A DNA stretch of 38,938 bases from assembly GCA_026702755.1 (NCBI GenBank), contig JAPPBX010000045.1, positions 1 through 38,938 of the forward strand, given 5' to 3'. This document shows, piece after piece, positions 3,685-11,572 of the stretch. This DNA comes from Candidatus Poribacteria bacterium. Its GTDB lineage: Bacteria > Poribacteria > WGA-4E > WGA-3G. Made by a program: the position numbers and the translations under genes. Numbering within the stretch: position 1 is the first letter of the stretch; each line of letters opens with the position of its first letter. Below the pieces are notes generated by a model. The model was not told the DNA's origin and made no database searches. It saw only the letters and a program-made list of their open reading frames with translations.

Positions 3685-4464
3685 TTACTGAGACTTTTCT
3701 AACTTTTCTACCCAATCCTGCATGTTGCGCAACTGCGTACGAAGTTCGCTTGATCTACGCTTAGATTCAGCACGTGCTTCATTTTCTTGCCTTTCGGCTT
3801 CCTTTACTTGTGCCAACATTTCTGCAGCATCTTCGGAGTAAACTGCAAGGTTTTCCAAGGCTGCATTGCGTCGTAATTTTGCCTCTTTGAATGCTTCTAC
3901 TGCAGACTTAATCTGATCAGTATCCATGCGTTCAAAGGAAACAAGCACCTTTCCGAGTTCTTCTATTGCTGTTTGGTAATCTGAAGCTGCAAGTGCTTCT
4001 TTGGCCTCATGGGTTGCGGACACAGCCGGGTCAGTATCCTTAAAAGGAAATACCTTCTTGAGCCTTTCTTGTGCCGCTTGGTATTCTGATTCTGCTGTAA
4101 CGTACTTTTCAAATGCTTCGGCAGCTGCCGCATCTTCATCTGAAATTGCTTCTTGCAATATGAGGGCTACAGAATCCGTGTCTTCGCTATGGACCTGGCT
4201 GTCGTCAATTTTTTCAGACATTGCAGCACTATCTATATCTTCTGATTCTGCTATACCTTCAACCGATTCGCGAGGTTCTTGTATAGCGTCAGAAGGTGTT
4301 GGTTTTACCGACAAATCTGCAGGTTGTAGGGGGACACTTTTATACACCCGCTTCGGTTCAGCTTCCAGTATTTTCTGAGTAGGACGATGATGCCCAAAAT
4401 ACCAAACAGCAGTCGCACCTATTAAGGAAAGAGCAACGTAAATTGGCATAAGATACTTTCTCAT
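3685..4464 (-). CDS. Membrane-anchored alpha-helical protein of unknown function
   Basis: Not recognised as a named family. The 259-residue product has a short positive start (MRKY), one hydrophobic helix at about residues 5-23 (LMPIYVALSLIGATAVWYF) and then a long exported part. Residues 30-105 are acidic and Pro/Ser-rich with low complexity. Residues 105-259 are rich in Ala, Glu and Lys with heptad-like spacing and probably form helices or coiled coil, ending in a charged region around residue 225. The part around 150-190 (AKEALAASDYQTAIEELGKV) resembles a TPR-like helical hairpin. It is transcribed alone from a good promoter at 4511-4539 and is convergent with panB. A scaffold or envelope role is only a guess. 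Confidence 0.75.
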   Translation of the reverse strand: MRKYLMPIYVALSLIGATAVWYFGHHRPTQKILEAEPKRVYKSVPLQPADLSVKPTPSDAIQEPRESVEGIAESEDIDSAAMSEKIDDSQVHSEDTDSVALILQEAISDEDAAAAEAFEKYVTAESEYQAAQERLKKVFPFKDTDPAVSATHEAKEALAASDYQTAIEELGKVLVSFERMDTDQIKSAVEAFKEAKLRRNAALENLAVYSEDAAEMLAQVKEAERQENEARAESKRRSSELRTQLRNMQDWVEKLEKSQ

Positions 4465-4510
4465 TTTCAGACCCCTTATCTGTTGAAGGACAGGTTTCTA
4501 CCGTTACAAT

Positions 4511-4539
4511 AGTTTATCAGAATTTTCCAACCTTTTCAA
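4511..4539 (-). promoter_or_regulatory. Sigma70-type promoter for the gene at 3685-4464
   Basis: On the minus strand TTGAAA (4534-4539) and TAAACT (4511-4516) are separated by exactly 17 bases, about 45 bases upstream of the start codon at 4464. This is a visual match to the sigma70 consensus. Confidence 0.55.
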
Positions 4540-4609
4540 CATTACTTCAGATAACGTTTGGTCCTGTGGATAAACTTGCAGGAATGCAGCAATTGCTAAA
4601 ATCGGGATA

Positions 4610-5248
4610 CTAAACTACCTGTTCGTAGGTGAGGTAACAATACTCAACTACGTCAATGACACGTGCGCCTTCTAATCGGAGAGGCTCCTTGAAAAATGGT
4701 GCGTCCAATACCCATGTGTGGTATTCGCCTTGTTCGCCGCACGCGTCAATTGGTAGCTGCTTCAGTTCTGAAATGAGTTTAGCATCTAAATACCTACCAG
4801 CAATAGTCGGTTGAAAGTGTTTTTTGTAAGCGAGGGAGCAGACGACCTTAAATTTGTCGGAGATAAGGGTATCCAATATCGCGTGCCGATCCAATTCCCA
4901 TAATGGTTTATGTACCTCCGCCAAACCTGCAGCAACTCCCTCTATCCAATTCGGCATCCCGTCCACCGTAGAAATATCTCCCGTAATTAGCACCTCAATC
5001 CCGCTATCTTTAAGCGTCTCGATCTGTTGCCGGTAGCTCGGTTTATAGGGTTCAGAAATCGGTAAGAATTCAAGAGGAATCCCGATCTTTCGCGCCTGTA
5101 TTTCCATGAGTTCCGTTGGATGCGCGTAGAATTGTCGATTGTCTGCTGGAACGAAACAGACAAGTCTCCTTATATCGTAAAGATTTAAGGAGACTTGAAG
5201 TGCGAGGGCAGAATCTTTTCCACCTGTCCACAGGACGGCTGCTTTCAT
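4610..5248 (-). CDS. Dph6-like ATP-pyrophosphatase (PP-loop), second of two tandem paralogues
   Basis: Adenosine-nucleotide alpha-hydrolase fold protein of the Dph6/MJ0570 group. The N-terminus has the PP-loop LWTGGKDSAL, which binds ATP for adenylation-type chemistry. Further family motifs are LITGDISTVDG and GEQGEYHTWVLDAPFF near residues 170-190. In archaea and eukaryotes Dph6 amidates diphthine on EF-2, but bacteria lack diphthamide, so the substrate here is unknown. I start at Met5 of a slightly longer frame (alternative ATG at 5260) because the family normally begins a few residues before the PP-loop. The longer start would overlap the preceding paralogue's stop by 8 bases. It is the last gene of the trp-linked cluster. 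Confidence 0.85.
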   Translation of the reverse strand: MKAAVLWTGGKDSALALQVSLNLYDIRRLVCFVPADNRQFYAHPTELMEIQARKIGIPLEFLPISEPYKPSYRQQIETLKDSGIEVLITGDISTVDGMPNWIEGVAAGLAEVHKPLWELDRHAILDTLISDKFKVVCSLAYKKHFQPTIAGRYLDAKLISELKQLPIDACGEQGEYHTWVLDAPFFKEPLRLEGARVIDVVEYCYLTYEQVV

Positions 5249-5252
5249 CAAT

Positions 5253-6020
5253 TTACCCATCCAGCGGCACTACATCCGCATAGACATAAGTCGGTGAAAT
5301 GTTGCTGCTTGTGTGAATTTTGTCATCTTTATCCTTTGCGGAAACAATATCCCTCTGAACGACTTCTCCCGGTTTCGCCGCAACAGGTGAACTGAACATC
5401 GGTCCATCAACGACGCACGTATGGAATTCTCCGTTTTCGCCGAGCGGATCCACACCATCCGGTAAATCTGCGAGAAGCGCAGCATCAAACCATCGTCCTG
5501 CAAAATCAGCGGGGACTTTGGTAGGATTGAGGGCAGTGATAATAGCCCGCAAGCCAGAATCAATCATCTTTTCGGCGAGCAGCGTTGTGTCCTCTCCCCA
5601 TACCGGAAAAATCGGTGTAAAACCGGTCCCCTTGAGTTTATCCTCCCGATACTCACGAATATCTTCCAAGAAGAGATCACCGAATGCGAAATGCGACGCG
5701 CCCAGACCTTCAGGCAACGCTTCCACCTCAGCGAGGAATTTTCGCATCGCTTCTTCATAAATTGCGTTGGAACACGGATAGGGGATCGGTATCTCGTACA
5801 ACGGCACGCCGAGTTTCTCCGCCTGCTGTTTCAGCACCCATGCTGGTGTCGAGTGGATAGAAACACGATCAAACGTCTTTGTGACAGTCGTAAAAATACC
5901 GCGTACATCGTAGCGTTCCGGCTGTTGACGGAGCGTGTGAAGTGCCCACGCAGAATCTTTGCCCGAAGACCAAGAAACCAAAACCGGTATGGGTGTCGCC
6001 TCATTCGTTTGTTTTGTCAT
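5253..6020 (-). CDS. Dph6-like ATP-pyrophosphatase (PP-loop), first of two tandem paralogues
   Basis: A 255-residue homologue of the next gene, with PP-loop VSWSSGKDSAWALHTL at about residues 16-31, a central SHFAFGDLFLEDIREYRE motif, and GENGEFHTCVVDGPMF near residue 200. These are signatures of the Dph6/diphthine-ammonia ligase-like ATPase family. It lies 20 bases downstream of trpG and directly abuts its paralogue, so the two are probably translated together and may form a heterodimer. Because bacteria have no diphthamide, the acceptor of the activated group is unknown. Position in a his/trp transcription unit could mean a metabolite-repair or nitrogen-transfer job, but that is inference. 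Confidence 0.87.
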   Translation of the reverse strand: MTKQTNEATPIPVLVSWSSGKDSAWALHTLRQQPERYDVRGIFTTVTKTFDRVSIHSTPAWVLKQQAEKLGVPLYEIPIPYPCSNAIYEEAMRKFLAEVEALPEGLGASHFAFGDLFLEDIREYREDKLKGTGFTPIFPVWGEDTTLLAEKMIDSGLRAIITALNPTKVPADFAGRWFDAALLADLPDGVDPLGENGEFHTCVVDGPMFSSPVAAKPGEVVQRDIVSAKDKDDKIHTSSNISPTYVYADVVPLDG

Positions 6021-6040
6021 TGTTAAACCTTTCTGTTAAT

Positions 6041-6604
6041 CTATAGTGCCAAAAAGTTTGCCAACAGACTCTTTCCAGCAGCCGTCAAAATTGATTCCGG
6101 ATGAAATTGCACACCCCAGATAGGCAAATCCTTATGTCGAAGCCCCATGATTTCATCCTGATCTGTCCAAGCCGTGATCTCAAGGCAGTCCGGCAGTGTC
6201 TCTTTTTTGACGATAAGCGAATGGTAACGTGTCGCTTCAAATGGATTATCCAGTCCCTCAAAAAGTTCGAGACCATTATGTTCTATCATTGAGGTTTTAC
6301 CGTGCATCAACCGATCAGCCCTAACAACTTCGCCTCCGAACACGTCTCCGATGCACTGATGTCCGAGACAAACGCCCAAAATCGGGACTTTTCCGGCGAA
6401 GTGTTGTATGGTATCGTTGGATATGCCTGCTTCTTTCGGTGTGCAAGGCCCGGGTGAAATGACAATCCGTTCCGGTTCCAGAGTGTCTAACGCCTCTAAT
6501 CCAATCTTCCGACTCCGATGAACTTCCAGTTCAGCACCGAGTTCACCCAAATACTGAACCAAGTTATAGGTAAAGGAGTCGTAGTTATCAATCATTAAAA
6601 CCAT
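6041..6604 (-). CDS. trpG: Anthranilate/aminodeoxychorismate synthase glutaminase subunit
   Basis: Class I glutamine amidotransferase that supplies ammonia to TrpE for anthranilate, and in many bacteria also to PabB for p-aminobenzoate. The 187-residue protein has [20 protein letters not shown] at the start, the oxyanion strand [11 protein letters not shown], the nucleophile Cys79 in GVCLGHQ, and His168/Glu170 in VQFHPES, so the triad is intact. Length is standard. The start is supported by CGGAGA about eight bases upstream. It is separated from trpE by 240 bases holding a broken RidA-like fragment and part of a dispersed repeat. The first Dph6-like gene follows after 20 bases. Confidence 0.94.
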
Positions 6605-6643
6605 TTTTCTGTCTCCGAGTTAACAGGTGCTTTTCTAAAGCAG

Positions 6644-6785
6644 TTAGTCTTCAATTTCGACAATCATTTCAATTATAATTGGAGTCCCAAGCGGTAGTTG
6701 TACCATGCCGACTGCGGAACAGGCATGTCTGCTTCTCCTTTTGGAAACTGATCGTCAAACAACCTTGGATGTCCTCATCAAATCG
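6644..6785 (-). pseudogene. 3' remnant of a RidA/YjgF-family gene, frameshifted
   Basis: Reading the minus strand, one frame gives LFDDQFPKGEADMPV. After a one-base shift near 6708-6724 the next frame gives SAVGMVQLPLGTPIIIEMIV ending EIED and TAA at 6644-6646. Together they match the C-terminal pattern of RidA-family enamine/imine deaminases (a FP-G---P-R-AV-----LP-G--IEIE type ending). In-frame stops precede the first segment and no start is present, so only about the last 45 codons of the gene remain. The assignment is by eye. Confidence 0.5.
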
Positions 6786-6844
6786 CCACAGTAATAGTTA
6801 TCAGTTGTCAATTGCAAGTGATGTGTGGTTATGTAACGTTGATG
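6786..6844. repeat. ATAACTG-type dispersed repeat between trpE and trpG
   Basis: Contains tagttatcagttgtcaattg on the left and ttaactgaaaaccgctaactg running into the end of trpE on the right, an inverted arrangement of the words used by the other intergenic repeats. It sits next to the broken RidA-like remnant, so insertion of the element and gene decay may be connected. Confidence 0.55.
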
Positions 6845-8353
6845 TTAACTGAAAACCGCTAACTGTTCCTCAGCCAATGCGATAGCACTGAGCATCGCGC
6901 GCGCTTTACTGACGGTTTCGTAATACTCAGTTTCGGGTACTGAATCTGCGACGATACCACCGCCTGCTTGCACATAAGCGGTGCCATCTTTGATAACCGC
7001 GGTTCGGATCGTAATCGCTGTGTCTGAACTGCCAGAGAAACTGAAATAACCGACAGCCCCACCGTACGTGCCGCGCCGTGTAGATTCAAGTTCATCGATA
7101 ATTTCCATTGCCCGTACCTTCGGCGCGCCGGAGAGCGTGCCAGCGGGAAGGCATGACCGGAGGACATCAAAAGCCGTAAAATTTTCGCGCAACTGTCCAA
7201 TAACGTGCGAAACGATGTGCATCACATGTGAGAAACGTTCAACTATCATGAGCTCGGTGACTTCAACAGTGTGATATTCACAGACCCGACCAAGGTCGTT
7301 CCGTCCTAAATCCACAAGCATAACGTGCTCCGCGCGTTCCTTTGGATCGGCAAGGAGTATCCGTTCCAACTCTTTGTCTTCTTCTGGGGTTGTGCCACGC
7401 GGGCGTGTGCCCGCAATTGGAACGGTTTGGACAAGCCCATCTTCCACTCTTACCATCATTTCCGGTGATGCCCCCACAATATCAAAATCATCAAACTTCA
7501 GATAATACATATAGGGGGACGGATTGATCACTCGCAACGCCCGATACACATCAAATGAATCTACAGATACTGGACAACTGAACCGCTGCGAAAGGACGAC
7601 TTGGATAATGTCGCCTGCGGCTATGTATTCCTTAGCATGTCTGACCGCGGCTTCGTAATCGGATTTCGTGAGATTCGATTGGGGTTCGGATATGATTTTA
7701 TCATACCGCTCCTGATGTTCACCACTATCCGTGCGTAAATGCATTTCGGAAGCAGCTGCGAGCTTCTCGACTAATGCCTCAATTTTCGCGAGCGCATCCG
7801 CATAAGCCCCATCTACATCTCCATCAATATGTGCGTTCGCCACAACCTTAATCTGATGGTTCACATGATCAAATATCAAAATCGTCTCGGCAATCATGAA
7901 AAAGCAATCCGGAAGCTGCAGTTCATCTTCGGTACTATCTGGCAATTCCTCCACGAAGCGCACCATGTCATAACTCATATAACCCACCGCGCCCCCGTGG
8001 AATTTCGGTAACTCTTCAGTGTCAACAGGTCGGTAATCCTGCATCAATTCCTCAAGGACGCGCAAAGGATCCTCATATTCCTGAACTACCGTTTCGCCTT
8101 TTTCCAAATACTCAATGGTAACTTGATGCCCTTTACTATAGAAAAGCACCGAGGGTTGACTCCCTAAAAAAGAGTAGCGCGCAACGTTTTCACCACCTTC
8201 TACACTCTCCAACAAGAACGCATAATTGTCTGGCATCAATTTATAGAACGCAGATACCGGTGTCTCCATATCCGCCAAAATCGATCGGTATACTGGTATT
8301 GTGTTTCCTGATTTCGCTGCCTCGCGAAAATCTTCCAACGTCGGATAATACAT
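6845..8353 (-). CDS. trpE: Anthranilate synthase component I
   Basis: Chorismate-using subunit that makes anthranilate, the first step of tryptophan synthesis, with TrpG. I choose the ATG at 8353 (502 residues, MYYPTLEDFREAAK...) because AAAGGAG lies six bases upstream and family members start near this sequence; the open frame itself reaches back to 8410. The allosteric LLES motif (residues 47-50) that binds feedback tryptophan is present. The chorismate-binding domain shows VVLSQRFSCPV, GASPEMMVRV, PIAGTRPRG, LVDLGRNDLGRV, HIVSHVIGQL, LPAGTLSGAPKVRAM and QAGGGIVADSVPE. It probably shares the leader attenuator of hisI upstream, because only 140 bases and no terminator separate the two. Confidence 0.96.
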   Translation of the reverse strand: MYYPTLEDFREAAKSGNTIPVYRSILADMETPVSAFYKLMPDNYAFLLESVEGGENVARYSFLGSQPSVLFYSKGHQVTIEYLEKGETVVQEYEDPLRVLEELMQDYRPVDTEELPKFHGGAVGYMSYDMVRFVEELPDSTEDELQLPDCFFMIAETILIFDHVNHQIKVVANAHIDGDVDGAYADALAKIEALVEKLAAASEMHLRTDSGEHQERYDKIISEPQSNLTKSDYEAAVRHAKEYIAAGDIIQVVLSQRFSCPVSVDSFDVYRALRVINPSPYMYYLKFDDFDIVGASPEMMVRVEDGLVQTVPIAGTRPRGTTPEEDKELERILLADPKERAEHVMLVDLGRNDLGRVCEYHTVEVTELMIVERFSHVMHIVSHVIGQLRENFTAFDVLRSCLPAGTLSGAPKVRAMEIIDELESTRRGTYGGAVGYFSFSGSSDTAITIRTAVIKDGTAYVQAGGGIVADSVPETEYYETVSKARAMLSAIALAEEQLAVFS

Positions 8354-8359
8354 CAGTAA

Positions 8360-8366
8360 CTCCTTT
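8360..8366 (-). promoter_or_regulatory. Shine-Dalgarno that decides the trpE start
   Basis: AAAGGAG on the minus strand, six bases before the ATG at 8353. The alternative upstream ATG at 8410 has no comparable site. Confidence 0.75.
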
Positions 8367-8493
8367 TTCAAACCTTTAGCATCAAAGTGCTCAACTTTAT
8401 CGTACTGCATACGGCAGCACTATTTTTTATCTTTACAAAACTAAGCGATTTTCGAGTGGATACCAAGGTCCGAAAACTGAGAAATATCAAAGA

Positions 8494-8874
8494 CTAATAG
8501 ACGGCATCTGCCTCGAAAACCTTTTCACCTACGATACGCGTTGACTCTCCGTCGGGGGAGACTTCCCGAAAGAAGCAGGAACGATAGCCGACATGACACG
8601 CTGCTACCTTCTGCTCAACCTTTATCAGCAGGGCATCGCCGTCGCAATCGACAGCAACAGATTTAACTGTCTGTGTATGCCCCGAAGTCTCCCCCTTTAT
8701 CCACAACTTTTGGCGGGAACGGCTCCAGAAGCAAACGCGCCCCGTAGTCAGCGTCTCTTTTATCGCTTCCGCGTTCATATAACCGACCATCAGGATTTCG
8801 TTATTCGTGCGATCTTGAATGACCGCGGCGACCAAGCCATCGCGGTCATATTTGAGTTCCGACAAAATTTTCAT
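8494..8874 (-). CDS. hisI: Phosphoribosyl-AMP cyclohydrolase
   Basis: Third step of histidine synthesis: it opens the adenine ring of phosphoribosyl-AMP. The 126-residue stand-alone domain (not fused to HisE) has the Mg/Zn signature DCDGD at residues 76-80 and the cysteines Cys93 and Cys100 in CHVGYRSC, which with Cys77 form the family zinc site. RVCFWSRSRQKLWIKGETSG is the substrate-binding stretch. The start at 8874 is set by GAGGAGA six bases upstream; the frame reaches to 8898 but that part overlaps the terminator T-run. It is the first gene after a His/Trp-rich leader peptide and terminator, and is followed by trpE. Confidence 0.95.
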   Translation of the reverse strand: MKILSELKYDRDGLVAAVIQDRTNNEILMVGYMNAEAIKETLTTGRVCFWSRSRQKLWIKGETSGHTQTVKSVAVDCDGDALLIKVEQKVAACHVGYRSCFFREVSPDGESTRIVGEKVFEADAVY

Positions 8875-8880
8875 CTGGTT

Positions 8881-8887
8881 TCTCCTC
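8881..8887 (-). promoter_or_regulatory. hisI Shine-Dalgarno, directly after the leader terminator
   Basis: GAGGAGA on the minus strand, six bases before the ATG at 8874. It begins only a few bases after the T-run of the terminator at 8891-8933. Any transcript that terminates there lacks this site. Confidence 0.75.
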
Positions 8888-8890
8888 TTT

Positions 8891-8933
8891 AAAAACAAAA
8901 AACCTTATGCCGCTCGGATTCGTGTGCATAAGG
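8891..8933 (-). terminator. Leader intrinsic terminator (attenuator) of the his/trp cluster
   Basis: On the minus strand CCTTATGC (8933-8926) pairs perfectly with GCATAAGG (8910-8903) around a 15-base loop. TTTTTTGTTTTT follows. This is a textbook Rho-independent terminator, yet it lies between the leader peptide and hisI rather than after a gene, as expected for a transcription attenuator. Confidence 0.85.
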
Positions 8934-9010
8934 CTTCAACTGGACTTAGAAATGAAAAAGACGATTTTCAATATGTATTTCAGTTATCCATTTAGGCGCA
9001 CACTCCTCCG
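8915..9010 (-). promoter_or_regulatory. Candidate antiterminator pairing in the his/trp leader
   Basis: In the minus-strand RNA, CGGA (9010-9007) and GUGUGC (9003-8998) can pair with UCCG (8918-8915) and GCACAC (8927-8922). That gives 10 base pairs with a symmetric 3x3 internal loop. The downstream partner covers the terminator loop and the last two bases of its 5' arm, so the two folds exclude each other. The upstream partner lies in leader codons 26-30, just past the His/Trp run. A ribosome stalled on that run would leave it free. One reaching the stop codon would mask it. Confidence 0.6.
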
Positions 9011-9085
9011 CAAGCAATTGGAATGCCACCAATGCCAATGGTTAGACATGCTATGCAAGTTGGAGTGTGAACGTAAAAGTGTCAT
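8984..9085 (-). CDS. His/Trp leader peptide of the hisI-trpE-trpG cluster
   Basis: A 33-codon ORF from ATG at 9085 to TAA at 8984-8986, between the promoter at 9151-9179 and the attenuator terminator. Residues 16-21 read His-Trp-His-Trp-Trp-His, with two further histidines at 7 and 11. Three Trp and three His codons in six positions are extreme for the rarest amino acid, and match the amino acids made by the genes that follow. The initiation site is weak (GAGAG close to the ATG), and a second ATG at codon 13 is possible. A small stem AUUGG/CCAAU (9033-9029 with 9021-9017) sits over the control codons. The peptide probably has no function beyond ribosome stalling. I found it by reading; no homology search was possible. 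Confidence 0.75.
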   Translation of the reverse strand: MTLLRSHSNLHSMSNHWHWWHSNCLRRSVRLNG

Positions 9086-9150
9086 TTCTCTCGCTTTTCA
9101 ACAACGGTTGATAACTGCCAAATTTTTGGATTCACCCACGCCTAATATTA

Positions 9151-9179
9151 ATAATACCACATTTACTTTGCATTGTCAA
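9151..9179 (-). promoter_or_regulatory. Promoter of the his/trp leader and operon
   Basis: Minus strand TTGACA (9174-9179), 17 bases, TATTAT (9151-9156). It lies about 65 bases upstream of the leader-peptide ATG and about 275 bases upstream of hisI, leaving room for the leader. The spacer resembles that of the promoter at 9738-9766. Confidence 0.8.
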
Positions 9180-9203
9180 GTTTTTAACTATTTGATTTTC
9201 CAC

Positions 9204-9521
9204 TCACAGCGTAGAGACCTTAGATAAGCTGACTACCTTCTTAGGAGTCCCTTCACGAACTAATGCTCCCAGATCAATTGATACGGTTTCCCATAGCCCA
9301 CCAGCATAATCAGGGTTGTTTGTATGAAATGTAATATCTTTAGGATTAGGAATCGGTTCGCTATCAAGTAACAAACCTTCAAGGTAACACTCAACCGCTT
9401 CCGCAGCTTGCATCAAGGCTTCCTCAACGGTATTTCCGGCACTGAAACACCCAGGCAAATCGGGAACAGTAACCCCGTAACAACTCTCCGGATCTTTGTG
9501 GATAACAATAGGATAGCGCAT
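9204..9521 (-). CDS. HicB-like (UPF0150-type) small protein without a HicA partner
   Basis: A 105-residue protein with the HicB antitoxin fold signature: MRYPIVIHKDPESCYGVTVP followed by DLPGCFSAGNTVEEALMQAA and EAVECYLE (residues 1-60). In type II HicAB modules the HicB protein neutralises the HicA mRNA interferase through this RNase H-like domain and often autoregulates through a C-terminal DNA-binding domain. Here the tail after residue 75 is short and I see no ribbon-helix-helix. The start at 9521 is supported by AGAGGTG upstream; the frame continues to 9626 but lacks a better site. No hicA could be read in the flanking 300 bases, so this is an orphan. It has its own promoter at 9738-9766. 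Confidence 0.8.
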   Translation of the reverse strand: MRYPIVIHKDPESCYGVTVPDLPGCFSAGNTVEEALMQAAEAVECYLEGLLLDSEPIPNPKDITFHTNNPDYAGGLWETVSIDLGALVREGTPKKVVSLSKVSTL

Positions 9522-9737
9522 AAAACACCTCTTATTCTCATAAATTTGCCTACAAGCCGCTGTTGTAATCCTGATAATCCATGAATCACAGTTCAAACGT
9601 TTCACACCCAACAGGACCACACTCAATTGTTAATCTTTCCACAAATTGTGTGACAAAGTGTGACAAAAACTATGTAGCTTCTGAGACATACACGCGATGC
9701 ATTTCAGACGATTTTATTTATGAAGTTAATGTTATTA
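9522..9737 (-). promoter_or_regulatory. Long untranslated leader of the HicB-like gene with a tandem 10-bp repeat
   Basis: About 210 bases separate the promoter at 9738-9766 from the start codon. The plus strand has two adjacent copies of GTGTGACAAA (9648-9657 and 9658-9667), with a partial third ACAAATTGTG-type copy beside them. This could be an operator or a relic of a lost hicA region. No convincing ORF or terminator was found. Confidence 0.35.
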
Positions 9738-9834: not shown

Positions 9835-9859
9835 ATATGCATCACAATTAAATAAACGA

Positions 9860-10029
9860 ACGATTCAGGTGCCGGAGAGAACCGGAGAATAGGGAAGTGC
9901 GGTGAGAATCCGCCACGGCCCCGCCACTGTGAACGATCACAAATATCCGCTGAAAAAACCACTGTCAATTTACTGATGGGAAGGTTCAGCGGACGCAAGA
10001 TCGGAAGTCAGGAGACCTGCCTGGATCGT
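9860..10029 (+). ncRNA. Cobalamin (AdoCbl-type) riboswitch aptamer
   Basis: Contains the conserved core in order: GGTGCC at 9869, GGGAAGTGCGGTGAGAATCC near 9893-9912, CGGCCCCGCCACTGTGA near 9916-9932 (with the GCCACTG loop), GATGGGAAGG near 9975-9984, and the B12 box AAGTCAGGAGACCTGCC at 10005-10021. P1 is closed by ACGAT (9860-9864) with ATCGT (10025-10029). The known role is to bind a corrinoid and lower expression of downstream uptake or synthesis genes. The downstream terminator at 10163-10195 suggests control by premature termination. Confidence 0.95.
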
Positions 10030-10074
10030 GTTTCACGCATCTGCTTTCGCGGGAAAGCGGTGGAACAGAGCACA

Positions 10075-10216: not shown

Positions 10217-11572
10217 ATGAACAAAGTTGTAGCGATGCCGCTTGCAAGCGCGGCTAAAAAAATCGATCGGCGGCACTTCTCGTGCTATTCACTCCTACTT
10301 CTCTGTGCTTTTCTTTTTACGCTCCTCGTGAGTCCTGCTTTTGGACAGACAGAAGCTCAAGACATAGCGGTTGTCATAAACGCCCTGACACATCCCGACT
10401 TGCGCATTGTCGCTTCTCTCTCTCTCATCGATCTGGATGAGCCAAGTGAGAGGCGGGCTGTTGACAATGAGATACTCCACATCGGCTTTGATCCGATATT
10501 GCGGCGGCGGGCGATTGGGCTCTCTATTCACGGGCATCTCGCCTATATCACGAGTTTCAACTTACCCATCACTGGCGAAACAAGTTCCGGCGACAACATC
10601 TATATTATTAACTTGGAAGATCGAGAGTTTGTTGGCGAAATTCCGATCGAGGCGGGCACAACCCCCCAGCAGATCGCTTTGGTCAATGATCAAAAGTTAT
10701 ACGTTACCTGTGCCGCAACGCATGAGGTCCATGTCGTTGACATCGACAATCGCAATGTGATAAAGGTCCTCACGGGTTCCTTCAACAAACCGACGGGTAT
10801 CACGCTTCTCAACGGCAAAGCCTACGTCACGAACCCCGCCTGGGAGTGGGATCCGGTTGCACGGAAAACCACCTACTACGATAGCAGTGTCACAGTGATT
10901 GATACGGAGACAGACATCATTCTGAAGTCAATCCCAGTGCCTACAAACGCAGGCGGAATCCTCAACGATGGTGAATCCACGGTCATTGTCAAAACAACGG
11001 GAAATTACAATGACATCCTGGGACATCTCGTTCTGATTGACGCGAATACCGATGAAGTTATGGAAACGGTTAAACTCGGGTTCACACCTGGATCCGTCGC
11101 TCTTAATTCACAAAAACAGTTGTTTATGCAAGGCAGTTGGCAGAACCCTGGCTTGCTCATCTACGATATCGTAGCACGAGACTGGATTCGCGATGAAGAT
11201 GATACGATTGCTAACTTCAGTAACGATGCGGATGCCTCTATCGGTGGTGGTTTGACCTTTGCACCAGACGGGAATCTTTATATCACGCAACCGGATTGGG
11301 GAGGCGGTGGACAGGATTACGTTCGCGTCATGGACGTGGCAGATGCATCTCTCCTGAGATCCTACCGCGTTGGACCCGGTGCTAATAATTTGGGGTTCGC
11401 AACGATTACACCGCGACGCGAAGATCTCAATAATGACGGGTTCGTCAACATGAAAGATATGATAATCGCAGGTCGTTTTATCGGGGATGAGGGTGCCGGA
11501 ATACTTGCGGATGTCAATGGAGACGAAGTTGTTAATATCCTTGATCTGGTGCTGATAGGTCAAGGACTGTAA
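10217..11572 (+). CDS. Secreted YncE-like beta-propeller with C-terminal dockerin, under cobalamin riboswitch control
   Basis: A 451-residue exported protein. A signal peptide with an extended n-region covers about residues 1-43 (hydrophobic YSLLLLCAFLFTLLVSPAFG, cleavage before QTEAQ). Residues 85-395 form repeated blades of the YncE/NHL type (for example VYVIDTE-like units: KLYVTCAATHEVHVVDIDN and SVTVIDTETDIILKSI). The last 50 residues are a type I dockerin-like pair of calcium loops, DLNNDGFVNMKD and DVNGDEVVNILD. GGAGG precedes the ATG. Because it directly follows a B12 riboswitch, corrinoid binding at the cell surface is a reasonable inference. Bacteroides BtuG is a known beta-propeller that captures B12, but no direct homology is claimed. 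The dockerin suggests docking to a surface partner. Confidence 0.85.
   Translation: MNKVVAMPLASAAKKIDRRHFSCYSLLLLCAFLFTLLVSPAFGQTEAQDIAVVINALTHPDLRIVASLSLIDLDEPSERRAVDNEILHIGFDPILRRRAIGLSIHGHLAYITSFNLPITGETSSGDNIYIINLEDREFVGEIPIEAGTTPQQIALVNDQKLYVTCAATHEVHVVDIDNRNVIKVLTGSFNKPTGITLLNGKAYVTNPAWEWDPVARKTTYYDSSVTVIDTETDIILKSIPVPTNAGGILNDGESTVIVKTTGNYNDILGHLVLIDANTDEVMETVKLGFTPGSVALNSQKQLFMQGSWQNPGLLIYDIVARDWIRDEDDTIANFSNDADASIGGGLTFAPDGNLYITQPDWGGGGQDYVRVMDVADASLLRSYRVGPGANNLGFATITPRREDLNNDGFVNMKDMIIAGRFIGDEGAGILADVNGDEVVNILDLVLIGQGL

Follow-up and report, generated by a model that had tools for sequence, protein, structure and literature searches.

Does the short reading frame ahead of hisI in this genome encode a leader peptide whose translation reports on two unrelated amino acids? 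The window, as we call the whole stretch of 38,938 nts of Candidatus Poribacteria DNA that was analysed, carries on its minus strand a promoter, a 33-codon ORF with the run His-Trp-His-Trp-Trp-His, a terminator, and then hisI, trpE and trpG, all of them as listed in a first-pass annotation. That annotation proposed that a mixed His/Trp leader controls the operon by attenuation, a proposal supported by codon retention, by covariation, and by Trp-only leaders where hisI is missing. Judging from sequence comparison, the element very probably attenuates transcription through a translating ribosome and responds to both His and Trp.

The leader element and its operon

The features of the element and of the operon are the following.

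9151..9179, minus strand: sigma-70-type promoter, TTGACA-17-TATTAT, with TG ahead of the -10 (extended -10)
8984..9085, minus strand: leader ORF of 33 codons (ATG at 9085, stop at 8984), MTLLRSHSNLHSMSNHWHWWHSNCLRRSVRLNG
9062..9069, minus strand: segment 1, CACACUCC, codons 6-8 including His7; its partner is segment 2
9023..9040, minus strand: control codons His16 Trp17 His18 Trp19 Trp20 His21, with codon 21 variable
8998..9006, minus strand: segment 2, GGAGUGUGC, codons 27-30, at the end of the ORF
8916..8927, minus strand: segment 3, GCACAC-GAA-UCC, terminator 5' arm and loop, the antiterminator partner of segment 2
8896..8936, minus strand: intrinsic terminator hairpin and T-run, dG -16.2 kcal/mol
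8494..8874, minus strand: hisI, phosphoribosyl-AMP cyclohydrolase (NCBIfam NF000768, 173.6 bits, cut-off 126)
6845..8353, open from 8410, minus strand: trpE, anthranilate synthase component I (NCBIfam TIGR00564, 599.7 bits, cut-off 517.7)
6041..6604, minus strand: trpG, anthranilate/aminodeoxychorismate synthase amidotransferase, TrpG/PabA-type (NCBIfam TIGR00566, 276 bits, cut-off 121)

The operon combines one his gene with two trp genes, and not one gene from each pathway as had been noted before. A gap of 240 nt separates trpE from trpG. TrpE probably starts at 8353 and not at 8410, because the similarity of its relatives ends before residue 15-20. The terminator is followed, after a few bases, by the ribosome site and the hisI ATG at 8874. 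Whichever of its six frames is read, the window has five or more His or Trp codons within six consecutive codons in one place only, the leader; in a random 310-nt region with the same dinucleotide make-up such a stretch has P ~0.0009. A simple terminator scan of 4500-9250 reports no terminator; it misses that of the leader because the loop exceeds the length that the scan allows. Rfam searches of 8850-9250, whether cut at the gathering score or relaxed to E 10, return nothing meaningful: neither the His, Trp, Thr and Leu leader families nor the T-box riboswitch model has a match there, and on these searches we reject a T-box, a riboswitch or a known leader family as the identity of the element.

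Mixed His/Trp leaders across Poribacteria

We surveyed about 85 genomes of sponge-associated Poribacteria. The DNA pattern for HWHWW, CAYTGGCAYTGGTGG, occurs in 53 of 85 Poribacteria genomes, with few exceptions as a single copy ahead of hisI, and a control pattern read backward is almost absent from them. Extra matches in G020, G073, G081, G083 and G030 lie within unrelated coding genes, and we reject them as leaders and attribute them to chance. A reading of the upstream sequence gives 70 leaders ahead of hisI, not counting two more that are divided by contig ends (G002, G027); hisI is followed by trpE in every case where the contig extends that far. Of these 70 leaders, 69 have two or more His codons and 69 two or more Trp codons, the exceptions being the leader of G042 with one His and that of G038 with one Trp. 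His makes up 12.8% and Trp 9.8% of their codons.

Within the genus (33 leaders), the leader start codon is always retained and the same promoter precedes the leader. The first-pass annotation had suggested looking for a conserved HWHWWH; the first five residues (16-20) are indeed conserved, together with His7 and His11, but codon 21 encodes His in fewer than half of the leaders (15 of 33). The most constant codons are Trp19 and Trp20 (33/33). For codons 15-21, dN/dS is 0.24 in frame versus 1.07 and 0.81 in the shifted frames. The core, CATTGGCATTGGTGG, is near-invariant in the genus even at silent sites, and therefore RNA constraints act too.

Comparison beyond the genus, which had been suggested as a check, shows mixed His/Trp codons persisting through large sequence change. 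The families differ strongly in sequence, but they retain interleaved His and Trp codons, the terminator, and a helix between the ORF end and the terminator 5' arm. The control run takes forms such as HHWHWWWH, HHHWCWWH, GHWHWGW and RWWWHWRGH, and between families almost only His and Trp are retained, as in MQTLNRQPQFQIASHHWHWWWHRVEGSSVPLLR (f4) and MNKQPTQFVSIRGHHHWCWWHEGLSRFMPA (f8). Family f5 has the leaders MPARIHTHGILWRHWHWRSELECAAR and MNRLAPWAHRLGRWWWHWRGHRTGGVC, and the f6 leader, MTTLDLTFDHICWWPWWSGVGACPVG, has a single His. Downstream of the hisI leaders there is a hairpin terminator with a T-run. Relatives that keep the operon and other sequence while lacking the ORF, the pattern named beforehand as evidence against a leader, are not seen; at the four leaderless hisI-trpE loci (G030, G039, G050, G051) the whole element is missing.

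Outside the phylum, a simple scan of 500 nt upstream finds no mixed leader ahead of hisI-trpE in Verrucomicrobia, Omnitrophota or Actinobacteria, although such a scan would miss a leader whose promoter lies at a greater distance. With no leader detectable at these loci, gene adjacency alone does not require one. In the Poribacteria loci examined, no His-rich leader precedes hisD and no Trp-rich leader precedes trpB.

Some individual loci depart from the general pattern. In G081 and G083, an in-frame insert of about 14 codons (QCEAKTNSARVGRI) splits the control run of leaders L074 and L075 into HW and WWH and preserves the reading frame and the downstream Trp-Trp. At the start of contig C149 of G071, an f4-type leader (HHWHWWWH; L071) stands with a hisI only 79% like that of the genus and with a genus-type trpE downstream, a mosaic that could come from mis-assembly, contamination or transfer. 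In the same genome as the window, two loci on contig C91 (L033 at 4395-4439, L032 at 6092-6171) flank an unrelated PQQ-type repeat protein gene. They closely match the promoter (87%) and the leader terminator (83%) of hisI, with no leader ORF between them, and are perhaps the remnants of a duplicated leader split by that gene.

Leaders of trpE without hisI

Four genomes in which trpE is not behind hisI provide a natural control: G025 and G028, of the same order, and G040 and G041, of other families of the phylum. Three of the four have a recognisable but divergent HisI elsewhere, and none was found in the fourth. Directly ahead of trpE all four have an element of the same type that contains Trp codons and none or one His (His counts 0, 0, 0 and 1) and, judged by eye, a terminator hairpin with a T-run after it. 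The G028 leader reads MQTRWPRSKVISCVKRWWYTSWGRSVPV, and the others contain SRWRHIDR (G025), FWRWWWR (G040) and NWCWWWR (G041). His drops to 0.8% of the codons in these leaders, and Trp stands at 11%. At least two His codons are thus present in 69/70 hisI leaders versus 0/4 trpE-only leaders; counted by lineage, with lineages that are not fully independent, the figures are 10/11 versus 0/3 (Fisher p = 0.011).

In the TrpE tree, the four genomes fall into two separate groups, each with neighbours whose leaders or loci are of the hisI-trpE type. G025 and G028 are placed beside G030 (99/95), and G040 and G041, with moderate support (85/81), beside G049, whose leader has four His. On this tree, the association of His with hisI therefore arose or was lost at least two times. 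As the leaders are His-poor where hisI is absent, we read the sequences as saying that leader His codons go with hisI. This natural control, a group of only four genomes, seems to us the strongest evidence for dual sensing.

Alternative helices and covariation

Segment 2 can pair with either segment 1 or segment 3. A pairing of leader codons 26-30 with the terminator by 10 basepairs had been proposed for the window; the complementarity is present, but it has 9 pairs and a 3-nt bulge and involves codons 27-30 (9006-8998 with 8927-8916). The three-way arrangement recurs in families f4, f6, f8 and f10 despite their different sequences, and the pairing of segments 1 and 2 likewise recurs with unrelated sequences. 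In an alignment of the 2:3 helix (8 pairs, 14 leaders), 95% of the cells are paired and 5 of the 8 pairs change on both sides, so that the antiterminator is kept by compensatory change of the kind that the first-pass annotation had asked to see. Controls in which the partner is slid by 1-3 columns reach at most 63% paired, with zero two-sided changes. The two-sided changes include C-G to U-A in G040 and G041, U-A to C-G in G042, and G-U to C-G between f1 and f4. The 14 representatives were hand-picked to cover lineages, omitting three leaders with a shifted or bulged helix (G038, G044 and G048). Since the register chosen also favours pairing, the compensatory changes weigh more than the 95% figure. 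Swapping segment 3 between families separates the duplex energies of whole segments weakly, because generic pairing swamps the helix, and we used the per-pair count in place of those energies.

The locus thus shows what is expected of an attenuator: an ORF with clustered codons that match the operon at 70 hisI loci, and Trp-only where hisI is absent; an intrinsic terminator between that ORF and the first gene; and, in the 14 hand-chosen leaders, an antiterminator and a terminator that exclude each other and are maintained by compensatory changes.

In f4 leaders such as L026 and L029, segment 1 spans the Shine-Dalgarno region and the start of the leader ORF (AAAGGYAC with GUGUGCCUUU). In this position, the f4 1:2 helix might restrict translation of the leader as well.

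Alternative explanations

The Trp codons could do all of the sensing, with the His codons present for RNA structure or by chance (CAU beside UGG). The constancy of Trp19 and Trp20 in the genus would suit a Trp-only attenuator, as would the trpE-only relatives, which by their anatomy work with Trp alone, and the single His of the G042 leader. We consider it unlikely nonetheless, given the contrast in His share between the 70 hisI leaders (12.8%) and the four without hisI (0.8%), which lie on two separate branches. Moreover, the position and number of His codons shift between families and yet His stays (HH, HHH, H.H), and both CAU and CAC are in use. It is still harder to credit that the RNA itself is the sensor, as a T-box, a riboswitch or a protein-bound element, and the ORF incidental. 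Strongly conserved core nucleotides within the genus and the presence of alternative helices agree with this, but Rfam has no matching family even when the search is relaxed to E 10, the dN/dS pattern is frame-specific, and it is the His and Trp codons, not the RNA sequence, that are kept between families.

The peptide might instead act in trans, by metal binding through HWHWWH for example or in a role like that of peTrpL, and not only via its translation. Leader peptides with trans roles exist, peTrpL among them (PMC7298713). Here such a role is the least credible of these explanations: residues past the run are freely replaced, even by a frameshift (G015, G080) or an early stop (G009, G012), and the His residues vanish where hisI is absent.

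Folding and proposed mechanism

If the element is an attenuator that senses both His and Trp through translation, transcription from the 9179-9151 promoter would yield a leader RNA with the 33-codon ORF. With charged tRNA-His and tRNA-Trp plentiful, the ribosome would reach the stop codon and cover segment 2, as it does in the folding model, and the terminator hairpin would end transcription. With either tRNA short, the ribosome would stall in the His/Trp run (codons 16-20) and, for His shortage, also at codons 7 and 11. Segment 2 would then pair with segment 3 before the terminator 3' arm is made, and RNA polymerase would read through into hisI-trpE-trpG. Without translation, segment 1 would pair with segment 2 and the terminator would form. 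We infer the stalling, the efficiency of termination and the sufficiency of either shortage alone.

Equilibrium folding of the complete leader always favours the terminator, and therefore the switch must be kinetic, with 2:3 forming before the 3' arm is transcribed. Folding the RNA downstream of a stalled ribosome, with no pairing across the ribosome allowed, gives a 2:3 probability of 0.86-1.0 at every His and Trp codon in seven leaders (G000, G029, G024, G026, G049, G042, G046). In G044, also folded, the outcome varies by codon. If pairing around the ribosome is allowed, by contrast, a stall at codons 18-20 of the window keeps 1:2 with probability 0.92-1.0, and a stall at His7, His11, His16, Trp17 or His21 does not keep it. 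The weakest step of the model is the way in which a ribosome that has moved beyond segment 1 would keep the 1:2 hairpin from forming; stalling at codons 18-20 would work if pairing across the ribosome is hindered. From this modelling, His may have more positions at which to act than Trp has; with His7 and His11 in or beside segment 1, it may also be read with more weight. That the leader works as an OR gate, in which shortage of His or of Trp alone releases hisI-trpE-trpG, and is re-tuned as genes join or leave the operon, with His codons disappearing together with hisI, we hold to be an evenly balanced proposition.

Relation to known attenuators

One leader reading His and Trp, two unrelated amino acids, appears to be undescribed. 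We found no description in the literature searched, outside which most subscription papers lie; a mixed His/Trp leader had also been unfamiliar to the author of the first-pass annotation. Multivalent leaders as such are known, among them the ilvBN leader and the thr leader with Thr and Ile codons. Ribosome-mediated attenuation is established for trp, his, leu, thr, ilv and pheA operons (PMC1183508). The E. coli ilvGMEDA leader, a 32-residue peptide with 15 branched-chain residues, is likewise a single leader peptide with codons for several amino acids that attenuates one operon (PMC6123439). The best-known leaders of this kind, ilvGMEDA included, read products of one connected pathway, whereas the present one appears to read products of separate pathways, with genes of both in the operon.

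With the trp leader of E. coli, Corynebacterium and Streptomyces (PMC1262725) the element shares a short ORF, clustered UGG codons, three alternating segments and a terminator. It differs in that His codons are interleaved, hisI comes first, and segment 1 precedes the control codons and does not overlap them. The trpE-only elements of G025, G028, G040 and G041 resemble the trp leader, which has its terminator ahead of trpE. As in the his leader of E. coli and Salmonella, His codons precede a his gene under terminator control (PMC1183508), but there is no seven-His run, hisI is the sole his gene controlled, and Trp codons are mixed in. The E. coli trp and his attenuators have this same alternation of 1:2 plus 3:4 without a stalled ribosome and 2:3 with one.

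According to Naville and Gautheret (2010), no phylum but Proteobacteria and Actinobacteria had a demonstrated leader-peptide system until they described one from Firmicutes (PMC2965389), and the Poribacteria leader may therefore extend the range of phyla. The phylum in which this mixed leader is conserved has no cultured model organism. The missing His codons where hisI is absent amount to a natural experiment, which indicates that regulatory codons track operon content.

Neighbouring features

Just upstream of the promoter, an ORF at 9204-9626 (minus strand) looks by eye like a HicB-type antitoxin and has no NCBIfam match. Further along, at 9850-10038 on the plus strand, a Cobalamin riboswitch (RF00174, 114.7 bits) precedes a predicted secreted beta-propeller-like protein (10217-11572).
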